DNA from: Clostridia bacterium | GTDB taxonomy: Bacteria > Bacillota > Clostridia > UBA1381 | Direction of reading: 5' to 3' | Length of the DNA stretch: 44,028 bases | Assembly: GCA_017415105.1 (NCBI GenBank) | Contig: JAFQJD010000008.1 | Location: 1 to 44,028, forward strand | In this document: in pieces, positions 5,816-34,564 of the stretch | Numbering within the stretch: position 1 is the first letter of the stretch | How the letters are laid out: the number at the start of each line of letters is the position of its first letter | Program-made: the position numbers and the translations under genes | Notes under the pieces: generated by a model | Databases searched by the model: none | What the model was told of the DNA's origin: nothing | What the model saw: the letters and a program-made list of their open reading frames with translations, nothing else

Positions 5816-6899
5816 GCAGGAGTTCTTTTCTTTTTTTCCGCCTCACACGGTTGAGGTGACGCTCAAAATCACCGCTCTGCAAAAGTTCGGTCAGAACATA
5901 CTGCTCAAACACTGGAACAGTACAAGAATAAAAACCAAGCTTGTTTTCAAATTCATTTAACAGACTTTCGGGCAGTATCATATATCCTATACGGATTGAT
6001 GGTGCAATCGTTTTGGAAAACGTATTTATATAAATTACAGAACCGCCGTCTGAAAGGGAAAACACGGTGTCCTCATTCTTTTTTGATACTGTCAGCTCGG
6101 AATCATAGTTATCCTCAATGATATATCCATTTCGTTTTTTAACCCATTGTATGTATTCACACCTTTTTGACACGGTTGCGGTAATGCTGCTCGGGAAGCT
6201 GTTAAAAGGTGTGATATGCAAAACGGTTGCGTTTGTTCTTTCAAGCTCGTTGGATTTAATTCCGTCCTTGCCGAGTTTTAACATATCACACTTCACGCCA
6301 TTTGCCTGATATACTCTGTGTATTTTATCGTATGAGGGGCTCTCGAGTGCAAATATCCTGTTATTTCCGAGTAGCTGAACAATCATACTGTACAGATACT
6401 CTGCTCCCGATCCAATAATAACTTGCTCGGGACGGACAAAAATCCCGCTGATGCGTGCAAGATACCCGCAAATCGCAAGCCGAAGCTCGGCACAGCCGTG
6501 GTTTGGCGATTTCACGAGGATTTTTTCGCCATAGTCCGATAGAACCCTGCGCATTGTTTTTGCAAGGACCGTATATGGAAACTCAACATTGGCAGAATGC
6601 ACCTGGTAATGATGAAGTGCAATATCAGAATGAGCATCGGCAGCCATCAGAAAATCGTTGTCTTTGTAAATTACAAAATACCCGCACCGTGTTCTTGCTT
6701 CAATATATCCCTCGTCGCAAAGGAGTGCATAAGCGTGTTCGACGGATATAATACTGATATCGGTTTCTGCTGCCATAATTCTTTTTGATGGAAGTTTGCT
6801 GCCATAGCTGTATATACCGTTTATAATATCTTTTCTTATTTGTTCATACAACTGTAAATATAAAGTTTTCCCCTTATTTTTTTTAATATGGTATTTCAT
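5796..6899 (-). CDS. pdxR: MocR/PdxR-type GntR regulator with aminotransferase-like domain, C-terminally short
   Basis: Residues 1-78 form a GntR-type winged helix (SKLPSKRIMAAE, then the wing up to GYFVIYKD). Residues about 105-367 resemble class I aminotransferases: ITPFNSFPSS, the Asp-containing IEDNYDSEL (261-269) and the PLP-lysine motif SKTIAPSIRIGY with K296. In PdxR proteins PLP binding controls transcription of pdxST, and this gene is divergent from pdxS, which supports that role. It is only 367 residues, whereas the family usually has about 450-490. The frame stops inside the terminator at 5785-5815, so most of the C-terminal small domain, which normally holds the substrate-binding arginine, is absent. 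Whether it still responds to PLP is open. Confidence 0.82.
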   Translation of the reverse strand: MKYHIKKNKGKTLYLQLYEQIRKDIINGIYSYGSKLPSKRIMAAETDISIISVEHAYALLCDEGYIEARTRCGYFVIYKDNDFLMAADAHSDIALHHYQVHSANVEFPYTVLAKTMRRVLSDYGEKILVKSPNHGCAELRLAICGYLARISGIFVRPEQVIIGSGAEYLYSMIVQLLGNNRIFALESPSYDKIHRVYQANGVKCDMLKLGKDGIKSNELERTNATVLHITPFNSFPSSITATVSKRCEYIQWVKKRNGYIIEDNYDSELTVSKKNEDTVFSLSDGGSVIYINTFSKTIAPSIRIGYMILPESLLNEFENKLGFYSCTVPVFEQYVLTELLQSGDFERHLNRVRRKKRKELLQKNTEV

Positions 6900-10273: not shown

Positions 10274-10284
10274 ATATGTATCCT

Positions 10285-10986
10285 TTACAGCTTATTGAAA
10301 TAATAGCCGATTGAACGCTTTGTCATAATGTACTTGGGCAGACTCGGATCGTCCTCTATCTTTTCACGCAGACGTCTGATAGTAACGTCCACTGTACGCA
10401 CATCTCCAAGATACTCATAGCCCCATACATTCTCAAGCAGAACCTCACGTGAGAATATCTGATCCGGCTCAACTGCAAGGAACTTAAGAAGCTCAAACTC
10501 ACGTAATGTTATATCAATAACCTTGCCGTTTTTCTTAACCTCGTAGCGGTCGATGTTTATTGTAACATCGCCAGATGTAATGGTGTTTGCCGGCTCCTTG
10601 CTATTGCTTTCCTGTGCCTTCATATCAGCACGGCGGAGAAGTGCCTTTACACGTGCTGAAAGCTCACGTGCCGAGTACGGCTTTGTTATGTAGTCATCAG
10701 CGCCGAACTCAAGTCCGAGCACCTTGTCCACCTCATCCTCGCGGGCGGTAAGCATAATAATCGGAACATTTGATGTCTTACGTATCTCCTTGCACACGTC
10801 CATACCGTCCATGCCGGGCAGGTTAACGTCAAGCAGAACGAGATTCGGCTTTTCGGCAAGACACATCTCAAGACCTGACACACCGTCATACGCAGAAAGG
10901 GTTTTATAACCCGACTGTGTAAATGTGTATGAAAGAATGTCGTTAATGTTCTTCTCGTCTTCAACTATAAGAATTGTAGTATCCAT
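10285..10986 (-). CDS. walR: WalR/VicR-like response regulator
   Basis: An OmpR/PhoB-type regulator of 233 residues. The receiver has acidic residues at D10 and E11, phospho-acceptor D53 in LLDVNLPGMD, and K in DDYITKPY. The C-terminal winged helix (about 130-233) includes WGYEYLGDVRTVDV and the end YIMTKRSIGYYF, very close to WalR recognition-helix sequences. The ATG follows AAAGGAAAAG. It is first in the operon with walK, from the promoter at 11047-11075. Neighbouring envelope genes (murT-gatD, glucosaminidase) are possible but unproven targets. Confidence 0.88.
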   Translation of the reverse strand: MDTTILIVEDEKNINDILSYTFTQSGYKTLSAYDGVSGLEMCLAEKPNLVLLDVNLPGMDGMDVCKEIRKTSNVPIIMLTAREDEVDKVLGLEFGADDYITKPYSARELSARVKALLRRADMKAQESNSKEPANTITSGDVTINIDRYEVKKNGKVIDITLREFELLKFLAVEPDQIFSREVLLENVWGYEYLGDVRTVDVTIRRLREKIEDDPSLPKYIMTKRSIGYYFNKL

Positions 10987-18666: not shown

Positions 18667-20885
18667 ACAGAATTGTTATAGACGGCATAATTGATAATAT
18701 AGTGTATCAGAACCCTGAAAACGGCTACGTTATCTGCGAGATATCCTCAAAGGACGAGGGCGATTTTTACGCTGTTGGCTATATGCCGACAGTGCGTCCG
18801 GGCGAGCGTGCATCGCTTACCGGCAACTGGGTAAATCACCCCGAATACGGCGAGCAGTTCAAGGTAGAAATCTATGAAACAATAATGCCAAGCGAGGAAA
18901 CGGCAATAATAAAATATCTCTCATCAGGCGTCATAAAGGGCGTGCGTGAAGCAACTGCAAAAAAGCTTTACGAAGCCTTTGGCGACTCTGTTTTTGATGT
19001 CTTGACAAGTGAACCTGACAAAGTTGCAAAAATAAAGGGCATAGGCAAAGACCGTGCCGCAACAATCTGCAAATCGTTTAATGAACAACGCAGTGTTCAG
19101 AACATTGTGATGTTTTTACAGCAGTATAATATCAGTGCAAATACTGCAATAAAGATACATAAAATATTTGGCAGTGAAGCCATATCTGTTATAAAGGAAA
19201 ACCCGTATTCGCTTGCGAATTACGTTGACGGAATAAGCTTTAAAACTGCAGATATGATTGCATACAATCTCGGAATACCTAAAAACAGTCCCGAACGTAT
19301 TGCGTGCGGTGTTACGTATTTTCTGCGTGAGGCATCATATACCAACGGTCACGTGTATATGCCAAGAGACCTGCTTAAGGAGCATACCGTATATAATCTC
19401 GGAATAAGTGATATTGAGGCTGAAAATGCAATAGCACAGCTTATTGCCGACCGTGATATTATAACCGACAGAATAGATAACACAGAGGTTTTATATCTTT
19501 ACGGAATGTATCACGATGAAAAGTATGTAGCAGAAAGAATAGCAGAGATTGCAACAGCAGTAAGCCGTTATGCTATAAGTGCAAGCCGTGCCGAGGATGA
19601 GGTGGACGAGTTCGAGGAAAAAAACGGAATAAAGCTTGCAAAAAAACAACGTGATGCAGTAGTAACCGCACTTTCATCCGGATTTATGGTTCTCACCGGC
19701 GGACCGGGTACAGGTAAAACAACTACCATAAACGCAATAATTTCCATAATGGAAAACCTTAACATAAAGGTAGCACTTACAGCCCCGACAGGCCGTGCGG
19801 CAAAGCGTATGTCACAGCTTACAAACCGTGATGCAAAGACGGTACACCGTCTTCTGGGTGCACAGATGATTGGTAATACACATACATTTTCAAGGGATGA
19901 GGAGAATCCGCTTGATTGTGATGTTATAATATTAGACGAGGCAAGTATGGTTGATACCTCGCTTATGGCTTCGTTTCTGCGTGCTGTAAAGCCGGGCGGA
20001 AGAATAATTCTTTCCGGTGACAGCGACCAGCTTCCGTCGGTCGGTGCGGGAAACGTGCTTCGTGATATAATAGATTCAGACCTTGTTTCCACAGTAAAGC
20101 TTACAGATATTTTCAGACAGTCCGAAGAAAGTCTTATAATCGTCAACGCCCACAGAATAAATAACGGCGAAATGCCGGAGCTGGGCGACCGCACCCACGA
20201 TTTCTTCTTTATGAGAAGAGGTAATCCGCAGGATGTCGCAACAACGGTTACCGAGCTTTATAAAAGCCGTCTGCCAAAAACCTACGGGCTTAATCCCGTA
20301 ACAGATATTCAGATACTCTCACCCACAAAAAAGGGGATTACAGGTACAGTTGAACTTAACCGTGTGCTTCAGGCATCAATAAATCCGCCGGCATCGGCAA
20401 AGAACGAATATAAATACGGGCAGACCATATTCCGTGAGGGCGATAAGGTTATGCAGACACGTAACAATTACGATATTGAGTTCTCCACAGAAAAGGGCGA
20501 GAAAGGTGTCGGTATATATAACGGCGATATGGGTACGGTTGATTCAATCAATATATCGGAGCGGTATATGATAATAACTTTTGATGACGGGAAAATAATA
20601 GAGTATCCGTTCACATCAGTTGAGGATCTTGACCTTGCATATGCAATAACCGTACACAAGAGTCAGGGAAGTGAATTTTCATATGTCATTATGCCGGTAT
20701 CGGCATATATGCCTATGCTTATGACAAGAAACCTGTTCTATACTGCCATAACACGTGCAAAAACTATGGTTGTGCTTGTGGGCGGTGATAAGATAGTTGA
20801 GAGTATGACAAAAAACAACTCATATACGAAACGGTTTACAGGGCTTCTGGAACGATTATTAAGAGAGAAAGAGAGGGATATTTAA
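18663..20885 (+). CDS. recD2: RecD2-type (RecD-like) DNA helicase
   Basis: A 740-residue superfamily 1B 5'-3' DNA helicase of the RecD2 (YrrC) group, which works without RecBC. The long N-terminal region, with helix-hairpin-helix-like GIGKDRAATI, is the RecD2 hallmark. The motor has Walker A GGPGTGKTTT (about residue 346), DEASMVD, a QLPSVGAGNV motif III and the C-terminal TVHKSQGSEF. RecD2 has roles in mismatch repair and replication-fork recovery. The ATG overlaps the stop of the preceding gene, and the next gene overlaps the recD2 stop by one base (TAATG). Confidence 0.93.
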   Translation: MNRIVIDGIIDNIVYQNPENGYVICEISSKDEGDFYAVGYMPTVRPGERASLTGNWVNHPEYGEQFKVEIYETIMPSEETAIIKYLSSGVIKGVREATAKKLYEAFGDSVFDVLTSEPDKVAKIKGIGKDRAATICKSFNEQRSVQNIVMFLQQYNISANTAIKIHKIFGSEAISVIKENPYSLANYVDGISFKTADMIAYNLGIPKNSPERIACGVTYFLREASYTNGHVYMPRDLLKEHTVYNLGISDIEAENAIAQLIADRDIITDRIDNTEVLYLYGMYHDEKYVAERIAEIATAVSRYAISASRAEDEVDEFEEKNGIKLAKKQRDAVVTALSSGFMVLTGGPGTGKTTTINAIISIMENLNIKVALTAPTGRAAKRMSQLTNRDAKTVHRLLGAQMIGNTHTFSRDEENPLDCDVIILDEASMVDTSLMASFLRAVKPGGRIILSGDSDQLPSVGAGNVLRDIIDSDLVSTVKLTDIFRQSEESLIIVNAHRINNGEMPELGDRTHDFFFMRRGNPQDVATTVTELYKSRLPKTYGLNPVTDIQILSPTKKGITGTVELNRVLQASINPPASAKNEYKYGQTIFREGDKVMQTRNNYDIEFSTEKGEKGVGIYNGDMGTVDSINISERYMIITFDDGKIIEYPFTSVEDLDLAYAITVHKSQGSEFSYVIMPVSAYMPMLMTRNLFYTAITRAKTMVVLVGGDKIVESMTKNNSYTKRFTGLLERLLREKERDI

Positions 20886-22234
20886 TGAAACATGGCGCTG
20901 CTGTATTTTTCAGATTTCTTGCAGTTTTTGTTGTGATATTCCTCGGCATAACGGCAGTCGTTCCGCAAAGCACGATAAAGGATGACGATGCGGTGCTTCC
21001 GATATGGAACGACGTTAACGAAGAAAACGGTGCCGATATTATCGAAGTGTTCAAGCTTGGCATAATAACCGGCGGTACAGACGGTGAATACGGCATAAAT
21101 ACACCTCTTACAGCATCAGAGGCGGCGTATGCTTCGGTAAGAATATATGAATACGAAACCGGACGTGATTATTCCTTTGATTATCACAAGTCCGATGAGG
21201 GTGAAAAATACATAAAAAAGGCAGAAAAGTATAAATTGTGGGATGATTCACTTCCGCAAAAAGACGAGGCAATGAGCCGTGAGGAGTTTGCGGCGGTTAT
21301 TTCAAGGCTTGATAAAAAATCAGAGAAGCTTAATGAAATAACAGACGTTGCAGGGCTTGACAGCCTGAAACATAAGGACGAGGTTTTAAAAATGTATAAC
21401 CTCGGCATAATGATTGATACAAACATAACAGAGGCATTCTCACCTGAAATAAAAATAACACGTGCGGATGCATCAAAGCTTATTATGATGTATCTCAAGC
21501 CCCAACGGCGTATAAAAATTGTAATGCCTGATTACGAGGCAATGGAGAAAAAAATAACCGAAACGATGTCGGGCTGGCAGGGTGACTGGTCGCTCTATTT
21601 TGAGGACTGCAAAACCGGCAGACAGATTTTGGTAAACAGCCATCAGGTATATTCTGCAAGCCTTATAAAGCTCTTTGTAGCACAAACGGTATATCAGAAG
21701 GTGGCAGACGGCGTAATCGCAAATTCACAGAAGCTTGAGAATGAAATAACAAAAATGATTACATATAGTGACAACGAGGCGTGGAAATATATAGCAAGAA
21801 AGCTCGGTAACGGCTCATACTCCAAAGGTATGGCAGAGGTCACAAAAACCGCACAGGCATCGGGATTTTCTGATACCGGTCAGTTCTATCAGGGCAGTCA
21901 TAAGAACTATAACTTCACCTCTGTAAACGATTGCGGTGTATATTTAAGAGGGATTTTAAACGGAACTATTGTGAGTCCGGAGTATTCGCAAAAGATACTC
22001 TCGCTCTTAAAAAAACAACAGCATCTACATAAAATCCCGTCGGGAATCCCCGATACGGTAACAACTGCCAATAAGACAGGCGAGCTTGACTATATGCAGG
22101 GCGATGCGGCAATTGTGTATGCACCTAACGGTACATATATACTCGTAATCATAGGCGATGACCTTAATAATGGCTACGGTCAGGTGTCAAAATTCACGGA
22201 GCTGTCAGAAATGGTATATGAGTTTTTGAACTAA
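20885..22234 (+). CDS. Exported SLH-domain protein with beta-lactamase-like serine hydrolase domain
   Basis: A 449-residue protein. Residues 8-26 are a membrane anchor or signal. Residues about 40-205 hold SLH-like repeats (ADIIEVFKLGIITGG, TPLTASEAAYASV, MSREEFAAVISRL), which bind cell-wall polymer. Residues about 215-449 resemble class A beta-lactamases, with SLIK (S259, K262), SDN (295-297) and KTG (397-399). I see no ExxLN omega-loop glutamate, normally the deacylating base, so it may be a peptidoglycan-directed or regulatory hydrolase, not a resistance enzyme. It is coupled to recD2 by a one-base overlap. A pair of palindromes follows the stop codon. Confidence 0.82.
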   Translation: MKHGAAVFFRFLAVFVVIFLGITAVVPQSTIKDDDAVLPIWNDVNEENGADIIEVFKLGIITGGTDGEYGINTPLTASEAAYASVRIYEYETGRDYSFDYHKSDEGEKYIKKAEKYKLWDDSLPQKDEAMSREEFAAVISRLDKKSEKLNEITDVAGLDSLKHKDEVLKMYNLGIMIDTNITEAFSPEIKITRADASKLIMMYLKPQRRIKIVMPDYEAMEKKITETMSGWQGDWSLYFEDCKTGRQILVNSHQVYSASLIKLFVAQTVYQKVADGVIANSQKLENEITKMITYSDNEAWKYIARKLGNGSYSKGMAEVTKTAQASGFSDTGQFYQGSHKNYNFTSVNDCGVYLRGILNGTIVSPEYSQKILSLLKKQQHLHKIPSGIPDTVTTANKTGELDYMQGDAAIVYAPNGTYILVIIGDDLNNGYGQVSKFTELSEMVYEFLN

Positions 22235-23501: not shown

Positions 23502-23975
23502 GTGAAAGAGGAATATTCGTCAGGCGGAAAACAGTTTATGTTTGTTCTCCTCTGGTCGGCTGTTTTATATATAGCCTGTGCGGCAATGATGTCGGCATTT
23601 GGCAACTACGCTTTTATCGGCGGAATAATTTCAGTATTGGTTTTCTGCGTGTTCGGTTTTTTTGTTCTGACACATTATACGGCACGGTTTACATATTCGC
23701 TTAAAAACGGAAGCTTGCGTATAAACCGTATGATAGGAAAGCGGAATAAAGAGGTTGAGTTTTCGTGCAGGGATATCACGCGGACAGCTTTCGGAGAAAA
23801 GCCCGATGACTTCGCAAAACCGATACAGAATATGCGTATAAGCGTCTTTAGCAGAAAGCAGAGTATGTATATTGAGTATAAAACAAAGGATGGAAAATCA
23901 GCATCAGTTGTTATAGAGCCGTCTGAAAAACTAAAACGGCGTATAGAAAAGGAAAGGAACAGTATAGATGGTTAG
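23502..23975 (+). CDS. Small membrane protein with two TM segments
   Basis: A 157-residue protein of no family I recognise. Two hydrophobic segments (about 12-30 and 38-57) are followed by a cytoplasmic basic and beta-rich region, like the layout of small proteins with a membrane-linked PH-type domain (two TM then TARFTYSLKNGSLRI and similar strands). GTG at 23502 is chosen since GGAGGTG lies 6 bases upstream. It ends eight bases inside ricT, in a different frame, so the pair should be co-transcribed from the strong promoter at 23444. Confidence 0.75.
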   Translation: MKEEYSSGGKQFMFVLLWSAVLYIACAAMMSAFGNYAFIGGIISVLVFCVFGFFVLTHYTARFTYSLKNGSLRINRMIGKRNKEVEFSCRDITRTAFGEKPDDFAKPIQNMRISVFSRKQSMYIEYKTKDGKSASVVIEPSEKLKRRIEKERNSIDG

Positions 23976-24939
23976 TATATTGGGGGTACGCTTTAAGAAT
24001 GCAGGCAAAATTTATTATTTTGACCCACAGGGAATTGAGGCAAACCGTGGCGATTATGTAGTGGTTGAAACGAGCCGTGGAATTGAATACGGCGAGGTAA
24101 TCCACGGCATAAAAGAGGTAGAGGATTCGGTTATCACAAAGCCTTTAAAGGGTGTTCTGAGAATTGCAACCGAGGAGGACACCAGACGTTTTAACGAAAA
24201 CAAGGAAAAAGAAAAAGAAGCATATAAAATATGTATTGGCAAAATTGAGGAACACGGTCTTGAAATGAAACTTGTTGAGGTGGAATACACATTCGACGGA
24301 AGCAAGATTCTTTTCTACTTCACGTCTGACGGACGTGTGGATTTCCGTGAACTTGTAAAGGACCTTGCGGCGGTATTCAAAACAAGGATAGAGCTTCGCC
24401 AGATAGGTGTGCGAGACGAGTCAAAGAGCCTTGGCTCAATCGGAGTATGCGGCAGAAATCTGTGTTGTTCACAGTTTTTGGATGAGTTCGTGCCCGTTTC
24501 AATAAAAATGGCAAAGGAGCAGGGCCTGTCGCTTAACCCGACAAAGATTTCGGGTGCGTGCGGAAGGCTTATGTGCTGTCTGAAGTACGAGCAGGACACA
24601 TATGAGGAGCTTAACAGATTAACCCCGTCAACCGGAACGGTTGTAGAAACTCCTGACGGCAAAGGTACAGTTGCAGCTGTGTCGTTGCTTAAGGGACGTG
24701 TAAGTGTCCGTCTTGAAGCGGGTGATGAAACCACCCTGCGTGATTTTGCTGTTGATGAGGTGGAGGTATATAACCCCGACAAAAAACCGCAGAAAAAGGC
24801 AGAGGAATTGCCCCAAAAACCGGTTGAGAAGAAACAGGTAAATGCTGTTACGGAGGATTCAGAAGGAAAGACGGAAAAACCAAAACGCAGAAACCGCAAC
24901 CGTAACCGTAAAAAGAAGCCGAAAACGGATGCAGAATAA
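23968..24939 (+). CDS. ricT: RicT/YaaT (PSP1 domain) regulatory iron-sulfur protein
   Basis: A 323-residue PSP1-domain protein. Six cysteines, C161, C166, C167, C198, C203 and C204, in CGRNLCC and SGACGRLMCCLKYE, match the RicT set that helps hold [4Fe-4S] clusters in the Bacillus Y-complex (RicAFT), which steers RNase Y mRNA cleavage. The N-terminal VVVETSRGIEYGEV is the family start. Residues from about 275 form a long basic low-complexity tail rich in Arg, Asn and Lys, which could bind RNA. It overlaps the preceding gene by eight bases. RicA and RicF partners are not in this window. Confidence 0.9.
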   Translation: MVSILGVRFKNAGKIYYFDPQGIEANRGDYVVVETSRGIEYGEVIHGIKEVEDSVITKPLKGVLRIATEEDTRRFNENKEKEKEAYKICIGKIEEHGLEMKLVEVEYTFDGSKILFYFTSDGRVDFRELVKDLAAVFKTRIELRQIGVRDESKSLGSIGVCGRNLCCSQFLDEFVPVSIKMAKEQGLSLNPTKISGACGRLMCCLKYEQDTYEELNRLTPSTGTVVETPDGKGTVAAVSLLKGRVSVRLEAGDETTLRDFAVDEVEVYNPDKKPQKKAEELPQKPVEKKQVNAVTEDSEGKTEKPKRRNRNRNRKKKPKTDAE

Positions 24940-25021: not shown

Positions 25022-25050
25022 TTGAAGTTATGACAAAACAGTGATATAAT
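25022..25050 (+). promoter_or_regulatory. Ferredoxin promoter
   Basis: TTGAAG (25022-25027) and TATAAT (25045-25050) are 17 bases apart, 44 bases before the ferredoxin ATG. AGGAGG follows at 25081-25086. Confidence 0.75.
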
Positions 25051-25093: not shown

Positions 25094-25267
25094 ATGGCTT
25101 ACAAAATTGACGCAGATGCATGTATAAGCTGCGGCGCTTGTGCTGCAGATTGTCCGGTAGACGCAATTTCCGAAGGCGATGCAGCATACGTAATCGATGC
25201 AGATACTTGCATTGAGTGTGGCGCTTGTGCTGATACTTGCCCGGTTGGTGCACCGGTTGCTGAATGA
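25094..25267 (+). CDS. fdx: 2[4Fe-4S] ferredoxin
   Basis: A 57-residue clostridial-type ferredoxin. Eight cysteines, C10, C13, C16, C20 and C39, C42, C45, C49, form two CxxCxxCxxxCP motifs, each for one [4Fe-4S] cluster. It carries low-potential electrons for hydrogenase, pyruvate oxidoreductase and similar enzymes in anaerobes. Start: ATG after a strong AGGAGGT site, eight bases away. It is monocistronic, with its own promoter and terminator, and was readable only by direct translation because of its size. Confidence 0.96.
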   Translation: MAYKIDADACISCGACAADCPVDAISEGDAAYVIDADTCIECGACADTCPVGAPVAE

Positions 25268-25280
25268 TTTAATATCATGT

Positions 25281-25329
25281 AGGGCGTTATGCGATACCCC
25301 CCCGGGGTGTCGGATCGCCCTTATTTTTT
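25281..25329 (+). terminator. Terminator of the ferredoxin gene
   Basis: AGGGCG (25281-25286) pairs with CGCCCT (25316-25321), with an inner stem CGATACCCC/GGGGTGTCG, followed by a TTATTTTTT tail. Confidence 0.85.
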
Positions 25330-25351
25330 GTCAGAAATGGTTATATGGAAG

Positions 25352-27271
25352 ATGAAACGAAGAATTAAACTCTACGGACTTATTTTAAGTCTGATGCTGC
25401 TTGTAACAGGCTGCGGATGCAGCGGCGGTGATGTAATTGTCGAAAAACCGTCAAAACGCAAACCGTCTACGGGCGAGAGCTGGACTGTTATGATTTATAT
25501 GAGTGCATCATCACTCGAAGATGAATACGGCCGTGCAGGCGAGGTGCTTAACTCGCTTTCTTATGATTTGCCTGAGAACGTAAATGTTATAGTAGAAGCA
25601 GGCGGATGTAATGAGTGGAGCATTGAAGGGATAAAGAATGACAAACTGCAGGATTTTGAAGTGCAGAAAAACGGCATACGCCTAATTGGTGAGCGACCGC
25701 TTGCGAATATGGGAAAGGCATCAACATATGCAGATTTCCTTAACCGCACAATAAAAGACTATCCGGCAGACCGCTATATATCTGTAATATGGGGCGAGGG
25801 TGGCAATCCGGTATCGGGCGTTGCATACGATGCTCTTTATGAATACGATTCGCTCACAGCCTCAGAAATTGCCGGAGCTCTTGCATCAACTGAAACCAAG
25901 CTTGATATAATCGGCTTTGATGCAGGAATGATGTCAAATCTTGAGGTAGCGGCGGCACTTGTTCCGTATGCTGATTATATGGTAGCATCCGAGGATATAA
26001 TGCCGCTTTCGGGCTGGGACTACAGGGGCCTTTTCTCATTCCTTTCAGAAAACCCCGATTCAGGTCCGGCACAGGTTGCACAGGTTATATGTGACGGCGT
26101 TTCGGATAACGTATGGGATGAATATGAATCAATTGTATCAATGTCTGTTATTGACCTTTCAGATGTGACAAAGCTGATGCAGGACTTTGACACACTTGCA
26201 TGGGGAATGGCAGGCGATGCGGAAAATTCAGACAAACTGCGTGCGATAAAGGCACAGCTTGATAAGGCAGAAAGAATGGGAGCAGGCACGATTTTTGAAG
26301 GTCAGTCAAATGTTATTGACCTTGGCTCGTTCAGAAACGCTGTCTACAGTGCTGTAAAGACAGACTATACAAATATTGACCGTGCTATTTCAAATGCAGT
26401 AATATACCGCACTGCAGGCAAGCTCCACAGCGACTCCTGCGGAATAAGCATATATTACCCACGAAACGGACTTGCTACAGATATAAATGAATACAAAAAA
26501 ATTTGCGTTAGTGCCGGATACAATGAGTTTATAGATAAAACTACAGCAAATGATGCTGTGTCTGACAGAGTTGCCGACTACAAGGCAACCGCAAGCTGGC
26601 AGGCGTATAACAGTGTGGTTGAAGCGAATACAGTTACCGCAGAGCCCGACCTTAACGGCAAGTATCTGCTTTACGCTTCAAACCCCGACATTATAAAAAA
26701 ACCGAGTGTAAACCTGTATAAATACAACGAGGAGGAGGGAATATACCTTTACCTTGCCTCTGATAGTGAAGTATCATACAGCAACATAACCAACTCATAT
26801 GAATACAGGCTCACAAACAAACAGCTTGAGCTCAACGGAATAGCTGTAAGCTCGTATCTTATAAACAGTATGGACGGTATGGCACTGTATTCAATTCCGG
26901 TCATATACGAGGATGAAATATCAAGTATACGTGTCCTTGCAAAAGAAACCGAAAAGGAAAAGTCGTATAAGGTTCTTGGAATATGGCAGGGTACAGATGC
27001 AAAAACGGGTATTATCGGACGCAAATATAAAACACCGTCCGTTGGTGATACAATAATCCCGATTTATGAAACATACGGTGAATACAAGGGAAAATACGTT
27101 GAGGGCAAGAGCCTTACACTGGTATTTGGCGGACTTAACATTAAGGAAAAGACGCTTGATGACGGTGAGTATCTGCTTTCATATACTGTCGAGGATATAT
27201 TCGGCAAGGTTACCCAAAGCAACACCACAAACGTGACAGCGATAAAAGGAAAGATGCAGATTTCAAGATAA
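25352..27271 (+). CDS. Clostripain-like (C11) lipoprotein lacking the catalytic His and Cys
   Basis: A lipoprotein of 639 residues: signal with lipobox VTGC (lipidated C21), a linker, a clostripain-family domain of about residues 40-400 (TVMIYMSASSLEDE; VIVEAGGCNEW) and a beta-rich C-terminal part. In active C11 peptidases the dyad is His in WDHGGG and Cys in FDAC. Here the matching sites read WGEGGN (E149) and FDAG (G192), so both are lost and the protein should not be a protease. It may bind peptide, act as a scaffold, or inhibit. The start is uncertain: ATG 25337 is an alternative for the same lipobox. It precedes murT by 28 bases in the same direction, suggesting an envelope role. Confidence 0.85.
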   Translation: MKRRIKLYGLILSLMLLVTGCGCSGGDVIVEKPSKRKPSTGESWTVMIYMSASSLEDEYGRAGEVLNSLSYDLPENVNVIVEAGGCNEWSIEGIKNDKLQDFEVQKNGIRLIGERPLANMGKASTYADFLNRTIKDYPADRYISVIWGEGGNPVSGVAYDALYEYDSLTASEIAGALASTETKLDIIGFDAGMMSNLEVAAALVPYADYMVASEDIMPLSGWDYRGLFSFLSENPDSGPAQVAQVICDGVSDNVWDEYESIVSMSVIDLSDVTKLMQDFDTLAWGMAGDAENSDKLRAIKAQLDKAERMGAGTIFEGQSNVIDLGSFRNAVYSAVKTDYTNIDRAISNAVIYRTAGKLHSDSCGISIYYPRNGLATDINEYKKICVSAGYNEFIDKTTANDAVSDRVADYKATASWQAYNSVVEANTVTAEPDLNGKYLLYASNPDIIKKPSVNLYKYNEEEGIYLYLASDSEVSYSNITNSYEYRLTNKQLELNGIAVSSYLINSMDGMALYSIPVIYEDEISSIRVLAKETEKEKSYKVLGIWQGTDAKTGIIGRKYKTPSVGDTIIPIYETYGEYKGKYVEGKSLTLVFGGLNIKEKTLDDGEYLLSYTVEDIFGKVTQSNTTNVTAIKGKMQISR

Positions 27272-27299: not shown

Positions 27300-28637
27300 A
27301 TGAAAAGACTTCTTGCAATATGGCTTGGCAAGCTTGTTTTTCTTGTTGGAAAAATTACAAAAAGACAGACCTCGTCAGCACCGGGTGAGCTGGCGTTAAA
27401 GGTATGCCCGTCACTTATAAGCGATATGAACAGACGCATAGGCAAAAAGGTAATTGTAACCTGTGGAACAAACGGAAAAACAACAACCAACAACGTAATC
27501 TGCACAGCCCTTGAAGCAAAGGGTTATACGGTGATGTGTAACCGTATCGGTGCAAATATGCTCTCAGGCGTTGTGACAGCATATATTGAATCTGCAACTC
27601 TTTCTGGTAAAATAAATGCCGATTATGCCTGTCTTGAAATTGACGAGGCATATGCGAAAATAATATTCAAACAGATAAAGCCGGATGTTATGGTGATAAC
27701 AAATCTGTTCCGTGACCAGCTCGACCGTTACGGCGAGCTTGACGGTACGGTAAATCTGATAAACTCTGCTATTGACCTTGCAGACGGTGTGACACTTGTA
27801 TTAAATGCCGATGATCCGGTGTGTGCACAGTTCGGAATGAAAGAGGGTGTAAAGGCACTCTATTACGGTGTGTCCGAAAAGGTGCTTGAGGATGAGGATA
27901 ATGCAAAAGAGGGACGTTTCTGTCCGGTTTGCGGCAGTGCACTCTCGTATAACTATCATCACTACAGCCAGCTTGGGGACTTCTTCTGCCCCGACTGTGC
28001 ATATAAGCGTCCGGAGCCTCACTATGTGATAAATAATGTGAAGCTTGGCGTGCCGATAAGCTTTGCGATAAACGGTGAGCAGTATACTGTTAACTATAAA
28101 GGTTTTTATAATATCCTTAACCTTTCCGCGGTATATGTAGCACTGTGTGCCGCAGGTGAGACGGTTGAAAATTTTGCTGATTTACTTTCGGCATACAAAC
28201 CGCCATCGGGCAGAATGCAGGAGTTTAAGCTCAATAAGCCGGTGGTCTTGAGCCTTTCAAAGAACCCTGCAGGCTTCAATCAGGCGATAACGACCGTAAA
28301 CAGCGATACACGCAAAAAAGATGTCATTCTTGCAATAAACGACGGTGCCGGAGACGGCAGAGATGTATCGTGGATATGGGATGTGAATTTCCCGAAGCTC
28401 AGAAACGAAAATACCGTTACTCTTTCCGTAACCGGCATAAGGCGTTACGATACAGCACTGCGGTTTAAGTATTCTGATATTGAGGTTGATGTTCTTACAG
28501 ACAATATGCGTGAGGCAATCACAAAAGCACTTGATACAGATTCAGAGATTGTCTATGTAATGGTCAACTATACCGCAATGTACGGAACAGAAGCGATTTT
28601 AAAAGAACTTGAAAGGGGATATAATGATGAAAATTAA
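27300..28637 (+). CDS. murT: Lipid II isoglutaminyl synthase, MurT subunit
   Basis: A Mur-ligase-like ATPase that, with GatD, amidates the alpha-carboxyl of D-Glu in lipid II. The 445 residues are normal length. TCGTNGKTTTNN (54-65) is the ATP P-loop. A zinc-ribbon insert with C208, C211, C230 and C233 (CPVCGSALS and CPDCAYKRP) is the MurT hallmark, and the C-terminal DUF1727 region has NDGAGDGRDVSWIWDV. AAGGAG (27281-27286) lies somewhat far from the ATG. gatD overlaps its 3' end by 14 bases. Confidence 0.94.
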   Translation: MKRLLAIWLGKLVFLVGKITKRQTSSAPGELALKVCPSLISDMNRRIGKKVIVTCGTNGKTTTNNVICTALEAKGYTVMCNRIGANMLSGVVTAYIESATLSGKINADYACLEIDEAYAKIIFKQIKPDVMVITNLFRDQLDRYGELDGTVNLINSAIDLADGVTLVLNADDPVCAQFGMKEGVKALYYGVSEKVLEDEDNAKEGRFCPVCGSALSYNYHHYSQLGDFFCPDCAYKRPEPHYVINNVKLGVPISFAINGEQYTVNYKGFYNILNLSAVYVALCAAGETVENFADLLSAYKPPSGRMQEFKLNKPVVLSLSKNPAGFNQAITTVNSDTRKKDVILAINDGAGDGRDVSWIWDVNFPKLRNENTVTLSVTGIRRYDTALRFKYSDIEVDVLTDNMREAITKALDTDSEIVYVMVNYTAMYGTEAILKELERGYNDEN

Positions 28638-29349
28638 GATATTGCATCTTTACCCCGATTTGTTGAATCTTTATGGCGATATGGGCAACATTGAGTGTTT
28701 AAAGCATCGCCTTATCTGGCGTGGTATTGATGTTGAGGTTATAGCACATCCGTCAGATGCAGGGGAGTTCGACGTGGCCGATATAGATATAATTGTTCTT
28801 GGCGGTGGTGGAGATGCCGAGGAGAAAAAAGTAATGCAGATGCTTGCCGTGCAAAAGGACAAGCTTATTGACTATGTAAATTCAGAGGGCACTTTGTTTG
28901 CTACGTGTGGCGGTATGGATATGCTTGGCAAATACTGCGTATTCGGAAAAGAAACCGTAGACGGTCCGGGCGTACTTGATATATATACAGAAAACAGCAA
29001 AAAACGTATGACGGGCGATGTTGTTCTTGATTCTGAAGTCTTTAACGGCAAAATAGTCGGATTTGAGAACAGAGGCCGCCGTACTGTTATAGGTGCGAAT
29101 ACTCCGCTTGGCAGAGTGTGCGAGGGCGGTGGAAATAACGGTGATGACAAAAAAGAGGGTGTGGTTTATAAAAATGTTATTGCTACACATCTGCACGGTC
29201 CCGTACTACCGAAAAATCCGCAATTGTGCGATTATATATTAGAATGTGAACTACAGAAAAAATATAAGGAATTTGCAAAGCTCTCGCCGCTTGCAGACGA
29301 GCTTGAGAAAAAGGCGAACGAATTTATTGTAAAAAGATATTCAAAGTAA
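28624..29349 (+). CDS. gatD: Lipid II isoglutaminyl synthase, glutaminase subunit GatD
   Basis: GatD supplies ammonia to MurT by glutamine hydrolysis. The 241 residues carry C95 in LFATCGGMDML and H189 in IATHLHGPVLPKNP, the class I-type (CobBQ-like) dyad. The ATG at 28624 follows GAAAGGGG and is preferred to a TTG-type start at 28609. It overlaps murT, so the two subunits are made together. The pair matches MurT/GatD of staphylococci and streptococci and indicates amidated peptidoglycan stems, although not essentiality here. Confidence 0.94.
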   Translation: MMKIKILHLYPDLLNLYGDMGNIECLKHRLIWRGIDVEVIAHPSDAGEFDVADIDIIVLGGGGDAEEKKVMQMLAVQKDKLIDYVNSEGTLFATCGGMDMLGKYCVFGKETVDGPGVLDIYTENSKKRMTGDVVLDSEVFNGKIVGFENRGRRTVIGANTPLGRVCEGGGNNGDDKKEGVVYKNVIATHLHGPVLPKNPQLCDYILECELQKKYKEFAKLSPLADELEKKANEFIVKRYSK

Positions 29350-29375: not shown

Positions 29376-31142
29376 ATGCGTAAAATTCTTGACAGACTTA
29401 AAAATCTGCCCTGGATAAAAATAGCACCGTACGGCGGTGTTGTTTTCGGTGTGGTTTTATTCCTTGTCCTTGCTGTTACTACATATAACGATACTGTGAA
29501 CAAACGTGAGGAGCAGGGCGGACTTGTAACAAGATTTCCTACCGACTCCACGCAGTTTTTTGCAGGAGGTATGCCTGATTCGGGCATTATACTGTCGTGG
29601 TATGACAATACTGCAAAGCTTAAGACGGGTGAGATAACCACCTTGAAGCTTAATGCTGAGATTTACCCGATAACACTTGGTGAGAGAGACCTTGTTTTTA
29701 CGTCCTCATTGCCCGAATGTGCTGAAATTGACAGCGAAGGCAATATTACAGCAAAGAAAACGGGAAGTGTGGAGATTACCGTTTCAAACGCGGCAACCGG
29801 ACTTAGTGCAAAAGCATATCTGCAGGTAATACAGCCGATTGAAGGGTTTTATATCCAGAACCCGTCACTTAATGTATATACCACAGATACGGGCGTGAGA
29901 ATTGTACCGATGATTTACCCCGAAACAGCATCTAATACAACCGTAAAATGGTATTCAAAGGATACAAAAATAGTCGAGGTTGACCAGACCGGACACATCA
30001 AGCCGGTATCTACCGGAATGACAGAGGTTGTTGCGACCACTGCCGATGGCGGACATACTGCAAAATGCTTTGTGAATGTTATAAACGAAACAATCAGAGT
30101 TGATGAGGTGAAGATACTTAATAAAGACAAGACCGAGCTTGAACGTGGCGAGGCATTAAGACTTCTGGTATCGGTACTTCCGCAGAACGCAAGAAACAAG
30201 CTTGTAAGCTGGCAAAGCTCTGACGAATCAATAATATCGGTTACACAGACCGGCGTATTAAAGGGTGTAAACCCCGGCTCGGCAACCGTATATGCAATGA
30301 CAAGCGATGGAGTGTACGACAGTTTTAATGTAACCGTAAAAGCATCACAGTCTGTAATTGTTTCTCCGGGTACACCAAGCTATACCGTTCCAGGCGGTGT
30401 TACATATACTGCTTACGATATGACGCTTGATGAAATGACAGAAAAACAGATGTCAACAAATCCTGTATATAACGACGGAAGCGGTCTTAAGTCTGCCGAC
30501 TTTAACCGCACAAGGATGTATGTTGACCCCAACGAGTTCTCAGAAAGCTCGTATAAATATCAATTTATGGACCTGTCGCACTATAACGGTATAAGCCGTG
30601 ACAAGCTTGCCATGTTCCTTGACGGCAAGGGCATATTAAGCGGTAAGGCAGATACATTTATACAGGCGGCAAGGCTCTATAACATAAGCGAGCTTTATCT
30701 TGTCGCACACGCCTGCCTTGAAACCGGATACGGCACATCACAGCTCGCAACGGGCGTAAACTATAACGGTGTACGGGTATATAATATGTTCGGTATAGGT
30801 GCTTTTGACAGCGATGCGGTGGGCACCGGTTCAAAGAAAGCCTACAGTGAGGGCTGGACAACGCCCGAGGCTGCAATTATGGGCGGTGCACAATGGATAA
30901 GCAAAAACTATATAAATGCAACATCGGGCAGACAGAACACACTCTATAAAATGCGATGGAACCCCGACAGCCCCGGAACACATCTTTATGCCGGCGATAT
31001 TGCGTGGGCAGTAACACAGTCAACCATAATGGAAAGGTTGTTTGCACAGTTCAGAGAAGCTTCGGTAAGCTATGAGGTACCTGTATATGCAGGCTCGGTG
31101 GCACCGGTTATTACAACAAACACAATGACTCTTGGTCGTTAA
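29376..31142 (+). CDS. Membrane-anchored Big2-repeat N-acetylglucosaminidase (GH73-type)
   Basis: A 588-residue protein: a short cytoplasmic tail, a TM or uncleaved signal at about 15-36, three bacterial Ig-like (Big2) domains between about 75 and 330 (each with a W/SS..I..VD..G.I pattern), and a C-terminal glucosaminidase domain. The catalytic glutamate should be E449 in AHACLETGYGTS, and the domain ends in a WAVTQSTIMERL helix. It would cut glycan chains of peptidoglycan at the cell surface. GGAGAGGAG precedes the ATG. It lies 26 bases after gatD and before a large glycosyltransferase, so a single envelope operon from murT on is likely. A WalR target is possible. Confidence 0.88.
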   Translation: MRKILDRLKNLPWIKIAPYGGVVFGVVLFLVLAVTTYNDTVNKREEQGGLVTRFPTDSTQFFAGGMPDSGIILSWYDNTAKLKTGEITTLKLNAEIYPITLGERDLVFTSSLPECAEIDSEGNITAKKTGSVEITVSNAATGLSAKAYLQVIQPIEGFYIQNPSLNVYTTDTGVRIVPMIYPETASNTTVKWYSKDTKIVEVDQTGHIKPVSTGMTEVVATTADGGHTAKCFVNVINETIRVDEVKILNKDKTELERGEALRLLVSVLPQNARNKLVSWQSSDESIISVTQTGVLKGVNPGSATVYAMTSDGVYDSFNVTVKASQSVIVSPGTPSYTVPGGVTYTAYDMTLDEMTEKQMSTNPVYNDGSGLKSADFNRTRMYVDPNEFSESSYKYQFMDLSHYNGISRDKLAMFLDGKGILSGKADTFIQAARLYNISELYLVAHACLETGYGTSQLATGVNYNGVRVYNMFGIGAFDSDAVGTGSKKAYSEGWTTPEAAIMGGAQWISKNYINATSGRQNTLYKMRWNPDSPGTHLYAGDIAWAVTQSTIMERLFAQFREASVSYEVPVYAGSVAPVITTNTMTLGR

Positions 31143-31159: not shown

Positions 31160-34100
31160 ATGACAGCTATAATAGGAATTATTGTTCTTACTGCAATGTT
31201 TGGCGGCGTTGCATGGTCGTCAATTGAAAAAAACACCTTTAAAACCATGAAAAGTGAAAAGAACAGCAACAGCTATATCTGGGTTCTTCTCATTCTCGGT
31301 CTTGTTGTCCGCATAATTGCGGCGGCAAGCTACAGGGGCCACGAAACGGATATGAACTGTTTTTCGGGCTGGTCGGATATGATATTCAACAACGGACTTT
31401 CACAGTTCTATTTATCCGAAGGCTTTCACGACTATCCGCCCGGTTATGTATATGTAATGTACGTTCTTGGTGCAATAAAAAGCATTTTCGGTCTTGACGG
31501 TGCTTCGTGGTGGGTAGTGTTAAAGCTCCCGTCAATTATAGCAGACCTTGCAATGGGATACCTTGCATATAAAATCACAACGAAGACATATTCACAAAAA
31601 GCCGGTGTGATTATTTCGGCATTTATTGTATTTAACCCTGTTGTAATATTCAACAGCTGTATCTGGGGACAGGTCGATTCGGTGCTTGCAATATTCTGTG
31701 CACTTGCGGTATATTTTGCTGCAGAAAAACGCTTCACCGCATCATTTTTTGCGTTTGGTGCGGCTATACTTATAAAACCGCAGGCAATATTCTTTGCACC
31801 GGTAATTGTGTTTGGCATAATAGAAGAAATATTTATCAACAACGGGTTCGATGCGAAAAAGCTTATAAAAACAGTGCTCTGGGCACTTGCGGCGGTGGCT
31901 GCAGTGTTTGTGCTGTTTATGCCGTTCGGAACAAACCCGATGCACGGTATAGAGGTAATACTCAATCAGTACATCGAAACGGTCGGTCAGTATAATTATA
32001 TGACAATAAACGCATTCAACCTTTACGGTGCAATGGGGCAGAACTGGACAGAGCTTTCATTGGTTGTATCTGTAATCGGTTATCTCTTGATGGCGGCAGT
32101 GGTGGTATTTGCAGGTTTTCTGTTTTTTAAAAAGAGCGGTAAGGAGAAATACTATCTTGTTTCTGCAATCCTTGTATTCGGCATATATATGCTTGCACCG
32201 AAAATGCACGAAAGATACGCATTCCCGGGTATATTTATGCTCATAATGCTTGTAGGTGCGTGTCCTGTAACGAAGAACTTCCTGTTCTACGGTCTGTATT
32301 CGCTTTCGCAGTTCTTTAATATTGCATGGGTGCTTCTTGTTTACGAAACAAACACAGGCAAATACTTCAAATCACCGGTAATTGCTGTAGCTTCAGTTAT
32401 AAATCTTGTTCTGTTTGCATGGATGGCATATACTGCAACAAAGAAAACAGAAACGGTTGTGCCACAAAAGGTACAGCAAAAGCCCGAACCGAAAAAAACG
32501 GTACAGGAAAAGACGAAATCTGAACCGAAAAAGACTTTAAAAAGCCAGTCAGGCGGATTCAGATTAAGTGAGAAGCTTGTAAAAATAACTGCGTTTGATA
32601 TTTGTGCAATTATTGCTATAACGGCAGTTTATTCGTGTGTAGCTTTCTATAAGCTTGGTGATAAGGTTGCACCCCAGACGAGTGCGGAGATTCTACAAAA
32701 CAGCATAACGGTCGATTTTGGCGAGGAGAAAAATATTTCAAAAACAGCATTCTTCCTCGGTGCAAGAAACCTTGAGGAAAGAAGACAGCTTACGTTTACT
32801 TATCTTGATAGCAACAAACAGACAGTAAAAGAGGATGTCAATGAGTCGGGTGCAGTGTTTGTATGGACAATCCGTGAGGGCATAGACGCAAATGCACGCT
32901 ATGTAACAATAACAAGCAATGCTACAGAAAACCCGACAGACCCGAGCGACAGAGTATATCTTAACGAGGTATGCTTCCTTGATACTGACGGAAATGTGAT
33001 AACACCAAAAAATGCAGATGATAGCGAGGTCAGTGCACTCTTTGATGAGCAGGACTACCTCACAACCGAAAAATCGTATATGTCGGGAACGTATTTTGAC
33101 GAGATATACCATCCCCGTACTGCATACGAGTTTTTACACGGTATGAGTGTATATGAATGGACACATCCGCCGCTTGGCAAGGTGCTTATGGGTATTGGTA
33201 TATCAATATTCGGTATGGTACCGTTTGGCTGGAGATTTATCGGTACACTGTTCGGCATATTTATGGTGCCGGTTGTGTATCTTCTTGCAAGACGTTGCCT
33301 TAAATATAAATGGCTTGCAGTTTTGTCGTGCCTGATTTTCACTTTCGATTTTATGCACTTCACGCAGACTCGTCTTGCAACGATTGACACGTATGTAACC
33401 TTCTTTATAATGCTGATGTACTACTATATGTATAAGTATTATAAAAAGAGCTTCTATGACACACCGTTATGGAAAACGCTTGTTCCGCTTGGTATTTCGG
33501 GAATATTCTTCGGCTTCTCTGTTGCATCAAAATGGACGGGACTTTACGCCGGAGCAGGACTTGCGGTTATATTCTTTATGACACTTTATGACCGCTTTAA
33601 AGAATATAAATATGCTTTATCAGCACCTGACGGTGAAACGGACGGAATAAGTCATAAAATGGTTATAGAAACATTTAAAAAGAATACAGTTATAACACTT
33701 GCGTTCTGTTGTGTGATGTTTATAGCAGTTCCGTTTGCGATATACGCATTTTCATATATTCCGTATATGGCAACCCCGAGCGGAGAGGGCTTTAAGACCA
33801 TATTTACAAACGCAGAATCTATGCTCACATACCACGGAAAAACGGTTGTGGCAGCAACTCATCCGTATTCATCGCATTGGTTTGAGTGGCCGGTTATGTA
33901 CCGTCCGTTATGGTATTTCTCAAACACACTTGAGAACGGTCTCAAGCAGGGAATAAGTGCAATGGGTAACCCTCTGGTATGGTGGGCTGGTATTCCTGCA
34001 GTTGGATACTGCCTTGCACTTTCAATAATAATTCCGTTGAAGAAAAACAACTATTTTGGAAAGAACAAATATAATTTTGCGGTAGCATATGGTGTAGTAT

Positions 34101-34564
34101 TTGCAATATTATGTCTTTTTGCCGGCGTATCGGGTATGGGTAAAGAAACCCTTGCAAGACTTCTGCCGTGTGTGGCGTTGTACTCAGTTGTATTTGTCGG
34201 GATATTTGTCATTACACTGATGTGTGATGACAAGCTCAAGCAGACCTCTGCACGCACACCGCTGTTCCTTGTAATCGGCTATTTTGCAGGATATATGCCG
34301 TGGATGCTTGTATTAAGAACTACGTATATCTATCACTACTTCCCGTGTGTTGTGTTTGTGGTGCTTATGATAGGCTACTGTATTAAAAACATTTACGATA
34401 ATGCAAAGAACAAAAAGGCAGTTATTATTACTGCATCAGTTTATACAGCCGTTGCAGTAGGAATGTTTATTTTGTTCTACCCCGTTATAAGCGGACAGCC
34501 AGTCTCACTTGAATTTGCAGAAAAATTCCTTAAGTGGTTCTCATCATGGGTTCTGGTAGCCTGA
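31160..34564 (+). CDS. Two-module GT-C glycosyltransferase, PMT-type C-terminal half
   Basis: 1134 residues with two polytopic modules. Module 1 (about 1-430) is a GT-C-like mannosyltransferase with the acidic loop GHETDMNCF near residue 60 and DYPPGYVYV. A Lys/Pro/Gln-rich linker (about 430-475) leads to a TM and a beta-sandwich of about 510-610 resembling discoidin-type domains. Module 2 (about 630-1134) is PMT/GT39-like: DEIYHP near 645, YEWTHPPLGK and TRLATIDTYVTFF. GT39 enzymes O-mannosylate exported proteins from polyprenyl-phosphate mannose. Both modules face outward; the substrates are unknown. The beta domain may grip acceptor glycan or protein. It starts 17 bases after the glucosaminidase gene. 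Confidence 0.88.
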   Translation: MTAIIGIIVLTAMFGGVAWSSIEKNTFKTMKSEKNSNSYIWVLLILGLVVRIIAAASYRGHETDMNCFSGWSDMIFNNGLSQFYLSEGFHDYPPGYVYVMYVLGAIKSIFGLDGASWWVVLKLPSIIADLAMGYLAYKITTKTYSQKAGVIISAFIVFNPVVIFNSCIWGQVDSVLAIFCALAVYFAAEKRFTASFFAFGAAILIKPQAIFFAPVIVFGIIEEIFINNGFDAKKLIKTVLWALAAVAAVFVLFMPFGTNPMHGIEVILNQYIETVGQYNYMTINAFNLYGAMGQNWTELSLVVSVIGYLLMAAVVVFAGFLFFKKSGKEKYYLVSAILVFGIYMLAPKMHERYAFPGIFMLIMLVGACPVTKNFLFYGLYSLSQFFNIAWVLLVYETNTGKYFKSPVIAVASVINLVLFAWMAYTATKKTETVVPQKVQQKPEPKKTVQEKTKSEPKKTLKSQSGGFRLSEKLVKITAFDICAIIAITAVYSCVAFYKLGDKVAPQTSAEILQNSITVDFGEEKNISKTAFFLGARNLEERRQLTFTYLDSNKQTVKEDVNESGAVFVWTIREGIDANARYVTITSNATENPTDPSDRVYLNEVCFLDTDGNVITPKNADDSEVSALFDEQDYLTTEKSYMSGTYFDEIYHPRTAYEFLHGMSVYEWTHPPLGKVLMGIGISIFGMVPFGWRFIGTLFGIFMVPVVYLLARRCLKYKWLAVLSCLIFTFDFMHFTQTRLATIDTYVTFFIMLMYYYMYKYYKKSFYDTPLWKTLVPLGISGIFFGFSVASKWTGLYAGAGLAVIFFMTLYDRFKEYKYALSAPDGETDGISHKMVIETFKKNTVITLAFCCVMFIAVPFAIYAFSYIPYMATPSGEGFKTIFTNAESMLTYHGKTVVAATHPYSSHWFEWPVMYRPLWYFSNTLENGLKQGISAMGNPLVWWAGIPAVGYCLALSIIIPLKKNNYFGKNKYNFAVAYGVVFAILCLFAGVSGMGKETLARLLPCVALYSVVFVGIFVITLMCDDKLKQTSARTPLFLVIGYFAGYMPWMLVLRTTYIYHYFPCVVFVVLMIGYCIKNIYDNAKNKKAVIITASVYTAVAVGMFILFYPVISGQPVSLEFAEKFLKWFSSWVLVA

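Follow-up and report, generated by a model that had tools for sequence, protein, structure and literature searches.

A clade of ferredoxin-linked clostripain-family lipoproteins without a complete catalytic dyad in Clostridia

The window, by which we mean the whole stretch of DNA analyzed, covers 44028 bases of a 1.8-Mb, 40-contig Clostridia genome that is 94% complete. On its forward strand lies a gene for a protein of the clostripain (C11) family, preceded by ricT and a ferredoxin gene and followed by murT, gatD and a glucosaminidase gene. Orthologues of the C11 gene are called ferredoxin-linked below, a label assigned after the fact; the clade itself was recovered without the dyad columns or neighborhood information. 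The features of the locus are as follows.

23502..23975, + strand: orf157, before ricT, encoding a small protein with hydrophobic stretches by eye and no family above cut-off
23968..24939, + strand: ricT (PSP1/YaaT), NCBIfam NF041131 at 315.6 bits against a cut-off of 70, upstream in 35/36 orthologous loci
25022..25050, + strand: promoter-like site before the ferredoxin gene (TTGAAG, 17 nt, TATAAT, TG before), a consensus match only
25094..25267, + strand: gene for a 2[4Fe-4S] ferredoxin of 57 amino acids (Pfam Fer4), directly upstream in 36/36 orthologous loci
25281..25329, + strand: terminator-like hairpin and T run in the gap between the ferredoxin and C11 genes, seen in the sequence and found in part by the scanner
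25337, + strand: in-frame ATG, an alternative start of the C11 gene
25352..27271, + strand: putative pseudo-C11 lipoprotein gene, 639 amino acids
25412..25414, + strand: codon of the lipobox Cys21 (LVTGC), the Cys being unchanged in all 28 rows of alignment A1
25796..25798, + strand: Glu149 at the catalytic His column, from alignment to C11 relatives and solved chains
25919..25921, + strand: Asp190, the presumed P1-specificity Asp, retained (Asp in 36/36 linked and 56/56 unlinked proteins)
25925..25927, + strand: Gly192 at the catalytic Cys column, placed by the same alignments as Glu149
26579..27268, + strand: C-terminal region, residues 410-639, possibly Ig-like (Big_13 at 18.2 bits, under the cut-off of 27)
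27300..28637, + strand: murT (Pfam MurT_C), 28 bp after the C11 gene, a neighbor in the window's genus only
28618..29349, + strand: gatD (Pfam GATase_3), whose best NCBIfam models are GatD, under their cut-offs
29376..31142, + strand: SagB-like glucosaminidase gene with Big_2 domains (Pfam Glucosaminidase and Big_2; NCBIfam SagB at 191.8 against a cut-off of 425)

Elsewhere in the window, 20885-22234 encodes a Beta-lactamase2-fold protein whose N-terminal part resembles S-layer-type repeats by eye, and 31160-34564 encodes a protein of 1134 amino acids that appears to consist of a GT87-like half and a PMT-type mannosyltransferase half.

The original prediction assigned the product of 25352..27271 to the clostripain family, and the match of residues 72-371 to Peptidase_C11 (PF03415), at 126.7 bits against a cut-off of 25.8, bears this out. 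With the clostripain equivalog model TIGR02806 the protein scores 22.2 bits against a cut-off of 550, and is not assigned to it. The window protein is the sole C11 match in its genome. Carrying a signal peptide and a lipobox Cys, it is predicted to be a bacterial lipoprotein; a lipobox-like pattern, matched loosely in a few cases and judged as a pattern only, is found in 36/36 orthologues. The C-terminal region of about 230 residues, which can also be aligned in intact full-length C11 relatives such as L145, matches no curated family above cut-off, the Ig-like match being sub-threshold, and a PDB search with it returned chance-level matches only. The original prediction called the C11 fold intact; judged from the sequence, the window protein may keep this fold and the old substrate groove.

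The prediction also placed E149 (WGEGGN) at the catalytic His site and G192 (FDAG) at the catalytic Cys site. A profile built from 28 orthologues was compared with C11 chains of known structure, and among the five alignments listed the Cys column was covered in all five (9cip, 6mzo, 6n9j, 3uws_B and 4yec_B) and the His column in three (clostripain 9cip, 6mzo and 6n9j); we take 3uws to be PmC11. Against 9cip (E 2e-23) the profile alignment sets clostripain NHGGG over GEGGN of the window protein and FDACLM over FDAGMM. In the available portions of the literature, the catalytic pair is given as His176/Cys231 for clostripain (PMC11296011) and as H132/C185 for globupain (PMC10315481), and the active C11 motif is His-Gly...Ala-Cys (PMC12445089). 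Since the solved-chain alignments and the published clostripain and globupain dyads agree, E149 and G192 occupy the dyad columns as predicted, and these columns are anchored in the orthologues by G150 (35/36), D160 (36/36) and D190 (36/36). The window protein, with Glu and Gly at these positions, has neither the His nor the Cys of an active peptidase. An active site formed by a different His and Cys was sought in the 28-row alignment and no conserved pair was found: no alternative His is invariant or nearly so, and the nearly invariant Cys247 is without a conserved His partner. The residue corresponding to the P1-specificity Asp of active C11 peptidases, given as Asp229 in clostripain and Asp177 in PmC11 in the part of PMC11296011 available, is present as D190 in 36/36 orthologues. 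Its retention would fit the binding of basic residues but would equally fit a role in the fold, because active members share the same Asp.

The gene is not peculiar to the window. A search of the window's genus found it in 15/16 genomes, the sixteenth (G010) being 71% complete with a contig that ends at ricT. In the family, 37/70 genomes gave a match and 36/70 carry the ferredoxin-linked gene, the 37th matching genome (G045) having only intact-dyad paralogues; the linked orthologues are spread over eight genera. When the 95 genomes of the order were searched with the clade profile, one C11 gene was found outside the family (L182 in G084), with its dyad intact; the remaining matches, in G072, scored 19 bits and covered just the signal-peptide end. 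The class search covered 391 genomes drawn evenly from a larger group. A weak profile match in G042 was considered as a gene remnant and rejected, as it covers only the signal-peptide end and falls within a small lipoprotein-like ORF that is unrelated to the gene. Five near relatives appear in named records, all of them MAGs listed as Clostridia bacterium or uncultured Ruminococcus sp.; one of these MAGs was obtained from dairy-cattle colon.

The C11 ORFs compared from the fetched loci number 92, comprising 36 ferredoxin-linked proteins and 56 others. None of the 36 has a complete dyad: 11 have His with Ser, two have only the Cys (L047 with Ser and Cys, L065 with Gln and Cys) and 23 have neither residue. 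The complete His/Cys pair is thus absent from all of the orthologues, and a single-genome oddity or sequencing error was rejected, as 36 orthologues agree. In L074 and L075 a Cys lies one residue past the Cys column (FDASC) with Gln at the His column. Both dyad residues are present in 77/77 of the remaining C11 proteins that were found when family, order and class were searched (17 unlinked proteins from the family, one from the order and 59 from the class), examined as 56 in the main alignment, 20 further class-level proteins and one last gene of the class list (G239). The diverged relatives L213, L219 and L220 likewise still have His and Cys at the dyad columns. Relatives that keep the dyad and lack a conserved context do exist, but as paralogues outside the clade and never inside it.

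Five distant relatives were taken from named genomes, of which three keep both dyad residues and two Bradyrhizobium proteins do not; this is a biased sample, as the Bradyrhizobium cases were found by patterns that included IGFDAGMM. The proteins of Bradyrhizobium neotropicale (L026, 5905-7260) and B. centrolobii (L027, near 5899-6888) belong to C11, keep the His and have FDAG for FDAC, apparently an independent loss of the Cys in the Alphaproteobacteria.

At the Cys column of the linked group Ser is the commonest residue (23/36). Together with the 11/36 proteins that have both His and Ser, this could be read as a change of nucleophile, by which the His-and-Ser members would be serine-type proteases and only branches such as that of the window would be dead. 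However, 12 of the 23 proteins with Ser have lost the His, the Cys column also holds Gly, Pro, Ala and Asn, and other columns of active C11 proteins drift as well. As the window protein itself has Glu and Gly, the reading does not apply to it, and for the His-and-Ser members we regard it as very unlikely.

The 36 linked proteins fall on one side of a branch when the dyad columns are removed, with an SH-aLRT of 97 in a quick tree and a bootstrap/SH-aLRT of 100/97 in a careful one, where the clade of 36 is recovered in 100% of 200 bootstrap trees. By parsimony, the minimum number of changes is four for presence of the His, three for presence of the Cys and one for the complete dyad. Judged from the alignment, the His was replaced several times over within the clade and the Cys was mostly replaced by Ser; in the sub-branch of four that includes the window protein, the His column holds Glu or Asp and the Cys column Gly or Asn. 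Over 358 columns compared between the 36 linked and 56 intact proteins, the entropy of the dyad columns is zero among the intact proteins, but the same columns are variable in the 36, in which the His column is more variable than 81% of the columns and the Cys column more than 47%. Throughout the 36, Tyr49, Met120, Asp160, Asp190, Asp323, Gly364 and Tyr390 do not vary, and the linked proteins also conserve columns that the 56 do not, for example Trp44, Asn76, Asp97, Pro235, Cys247, Asp280 and Glu316. As further columns of active C11 proteins have drifted (54, 65, 68, 147, 217 and 263, which are Asp, Asp, Glu, Trp, Glu and Thr in active relatives), the groove may be remodelled. A His-Cys loop free of basic residues was rejected as a mark of the dead clade, Lys and Arg being absent from it in 16/36 linked and 9/56 intact proteins.

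The linked clade is under strong purifying selection, with dN/dS values as low as in intact relatives: 0.04, 0.10, 0.13, 0.08, 0.13 and 0.11 for six linked pairs (dS 0.8-2.1, several dS values being near saturation) and 0.05, 0.08, 0.23 and 0.10 for four intact pairs. Between the window gene and its nearest relative dN/dS is 0.14 at a dS of 2.3. Two linked pairs were left out, their dS being saturated (6.1) or undefined. The protein search found no interrupting stop codon in any of the 36 genes; for G002, one TGA was counted in the profile search and none in the protein search of the same gene. A lineage that has lost its catalytic residues under purifying selection corresponds to what is called a pseudoprotease, and on this basis the linked proteins would qualify. 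The drift of catalytic and other columns and the absence of the gene from a g7 subclade might suggest instead a former protease in decay that has been kept by chance. This is the least probable of the explanations considered, and hardly credible, as the gene is full-length in 36/36 orthologues, extends over eight genera and shows newly conserved columns; neutral decay is rejected by the low dN/dS, barring artefacts in these values. That a dead protease is being kept for a non-catalytic role, as originally proposed, is well supported by a single clade of 36 proteins, all without the full dyad and under purifying selection.

Such a role could in principle be that of a decoy for, or an inhibitor of, an active C11 protease made by the same cell, as 13/36 carrier genomes also have an intact-dyad C11 gene. 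The other 23 carriers, including the window's genome, are without another C11 match; many of these genomes are incomplete, but for the 94% complete genome of the window the decoy is already unlikely. Overall it appears highly improbable, and regulation of a sibling C11 protein was rejected as a general role on the same count of 23/36.

The widest positional association of the gene is with the ferredoxin/RicT block, a neighborhood that includes the ferredoxin gene at 25094-25267 and was missing from the original prediction. The single locus of the 36 without ricT upstream is that of G069, in which the ferredoxin and C11 genes are together and RicT is on another contig without an adjoining ferredoxin gene. 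Upstream of the linked gene ricT is usually accompanied by orf157. In family genomes without the linked gene, a ferredoxin gene is found at 17/20 ricT loci, and two of the three loci without one are cut off there by the contig end; the ferredoxin gene is thus beside ricT in most loci of the family, with or without the linked gene. None of these 20 loci has a C11 match, and at the 16 loci for which downstream ORFs were listed, these encode different things. Conversely, no RicT or ferredoxin ORF lies beside the 40 C11 genes of L145-L184 or in the short stretches L201-L221. The positional tie to the ferredoxin/RicT block is wider than that to murT-gatD described below.

The region has seven promoter-like sites, compared with a mean of 6.5 in shuffled sequence. 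A hairpin followed by at least four T is found in 35/36 orthologous gaps between the ferredoxin and C11 genes, by a loose criterion applied without a shuffle control. Since the T run ends at 25329 and the start codon lies at 25337 or 25352, too little room is left between them for a promoter, and expression of the C11 gene in the window probably depends on read-through of the ferredoxin terminator. A tRNA or Rfam element in the gap before the gene was considered and rejected, none being found in the window at the thresholds used. RicT belongs to an Fe-S protein complex. RicT and the ferredoxin are presumably cytoplasmic and the lipoprotein presumably outside, and as these are opposite sides of the membrane, the association may reflect shared expression or inherited gene order, not a complex.

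Downstream, the coordinates and Pfam matches confirm that the gene lies just before murT, gatD and a glucosaminidase gene. In the window's genus (g1), murT is the next gene in 15/15 loci and the glucosaminidase gene lies two or three genes on in 15/15, with gatD between them in 13/15; it is missing there in G006 and G007 (L044 near 5615-5622 and L045 near 10278-10288), in which the only gatD-like matches are on other contigs at 48-53% identity. The gene is probably transcribed together with murT, gatD and the glucosaminidase gene in the genus. The original prediction went further and suggested a link with peptidoglycan metabolism, raising the question of whether the neighborhood is conserved. 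It is so within the genus but not beyond it: among the 21 loci outside, two end right after the gene and murT is next in none of the 19 that can be assessed. As a context common across genera murT-gatD was accordingly rejected, these genomes having a separate cassette. In the murT regions from outside the genus (L193-L199), gatD follows in 7/7 and a glucosaminidase gene in 6/7, the exception (L196) ending 1.6 kb after gatD. Two g4 genomes have the murT cassette about 8-12 kb upstream of the C11 gene on the same strand, and no C11 gene is in view in the remaining five regions, of which four belong to carrier genomes.

Over the 70 family genomes, 35 have both MurT and the linked gene, one has the linked gene only (G036), seven have MurT only and 27 have neither. 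On a RicT tree of 63 of these genomes, the linked gene changes three times and MurT four times, leaving three independent pairs and a sign-test median p of 0.5; with so few changes on the tree, the co-occurrence cannot reach significance. Four genomes of a g7 subclade (G038, G039, G041 and G042) have MurT without the linked gene, the stretch behind ricT being off the contig in G042. On the RicT tree, the presence of MurT and that of the linked gene split the family along the same deep division, and the rows of g3, g6, g8, g11-g13 and g15 have neither.

The main rival to a general binding role is that the protein is a peptidoglycan accessory, regulating or scaffolding the MurT-GatD or SagB-like glucosaminidase pathway in the way that inactive LytM proteins regulate autolysins. 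The constant order in the genus, the 28-bp gap to murT in the window and the presence of MurT in 35/36 carrier genomes are in keeping with it, and inactive LytM regulators such as DipM do exist (PMC10336132, in the part available). Against it stand the absence of an adjoining murT in all 19 assessable loci elsewhere, where the murT-gatD cassette is separate (7/7 regions, 6/7 with a glucosaminidase gene in view), the g7-subclade genomes that have MurT alone and the three independent pairs with their median p of 0.5. MurT and GatD, moreover, are cytoplasmic. The murT-gatD context thus holds within one genus, and a peptidoglycan role as an explanation for the clade we consider doubtful.

We favor as the probable explanation a lipid-anchored C11 pseudoprotease that binds a partner instead of cleaving it; from the dyad columns we infer that peptidase activity is absent. 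The protein would be anchored to the cytoplasmic membrane on its outer side, where a peptide or protein partner would most likely be held in the old substrate groove with its kept Asp190, through the C-terminal Ig-like region, or both; in this way it would scaffold or regulate a process of the envelope. Several points weigh against this explanation: the 11 proteins with His and Ser could in principle retain serine-type activity, in L074 and L075 a Cys directly follows the Cys column, although their His column holds Gln, and the most constant neighbors, RicT and the ferredoxin, are presumably cytoplasmic while the protein is expected outside. A more specific scenario, which is speculative and on balance unlikely, is that a surface clostripain became a conserved receptor-like protein, losing its dyad by several routes but keeping the pocket Asp and fixing new columns. 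It would capture an envelope partner or basic peptides, and one genus would have recruited it to the murT-gatD-glucosaminidase operon as a cell-wall regulator.

With clostripain and other C11 proteases the window protein shares homology over residues 72-371, alignment of its profile to 9cip and to PmC11 4yec, and the P1 Asp; it differs from them in the replaced His and Cys, the C-terminal extension and the predicted lipid anchor. Parallels are found among caspase relatives. In the portion of PMC6426788 available, pseudo-orthocaspases of photosynthetic bacteria are described as conserved groups in which the HC dyad is replaced, often by Tyr or Ser, with models that have an unchanged fold and keep the acidic specificity pocket. 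These are likewise caspase-like proteins with a replaced dyad and a kept acidic pocket, but they are p20 orthocaspases, while the clade described here is one of gut-Clostridia lipoproteins with many kinds of substitution. Metacaspase 4 of Trypanosoma brucei, named a pseudopeptidase in the part of PMC4850289 available, is similar in being a caspase-clan pseudopeptidase with a function kept, but is a eukaryotic metacaspase and not a C11 protein. DipM-type LytM proteins, according to the available part of PMC10336132, resemble the proposed role of the window protein as inactive envelope peptidase homologues that work through binding; they belong to another family and have other partners. No pseudo-C11 clade was found among the matches listed in open-licence PMC literature on inactive clostripain homologues and clan CD pseudoproteases, nor in the portion of PMC12445089 available.

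The C11 family of proteases is known from commensal gut bacteria, and an annotation as clostripain family in these genomes need not denote a protease. A maintained C11 clade without the dyad would show reuse of the fold without catalysis, as in caspase relatives. The 36 sequences with graded loss of the dyad, along with the intact paralogues that 13 of these genomes also carry, constitute a natural experiment that could teach which parts of a caspase-like groove serve binding and which serve cutting.
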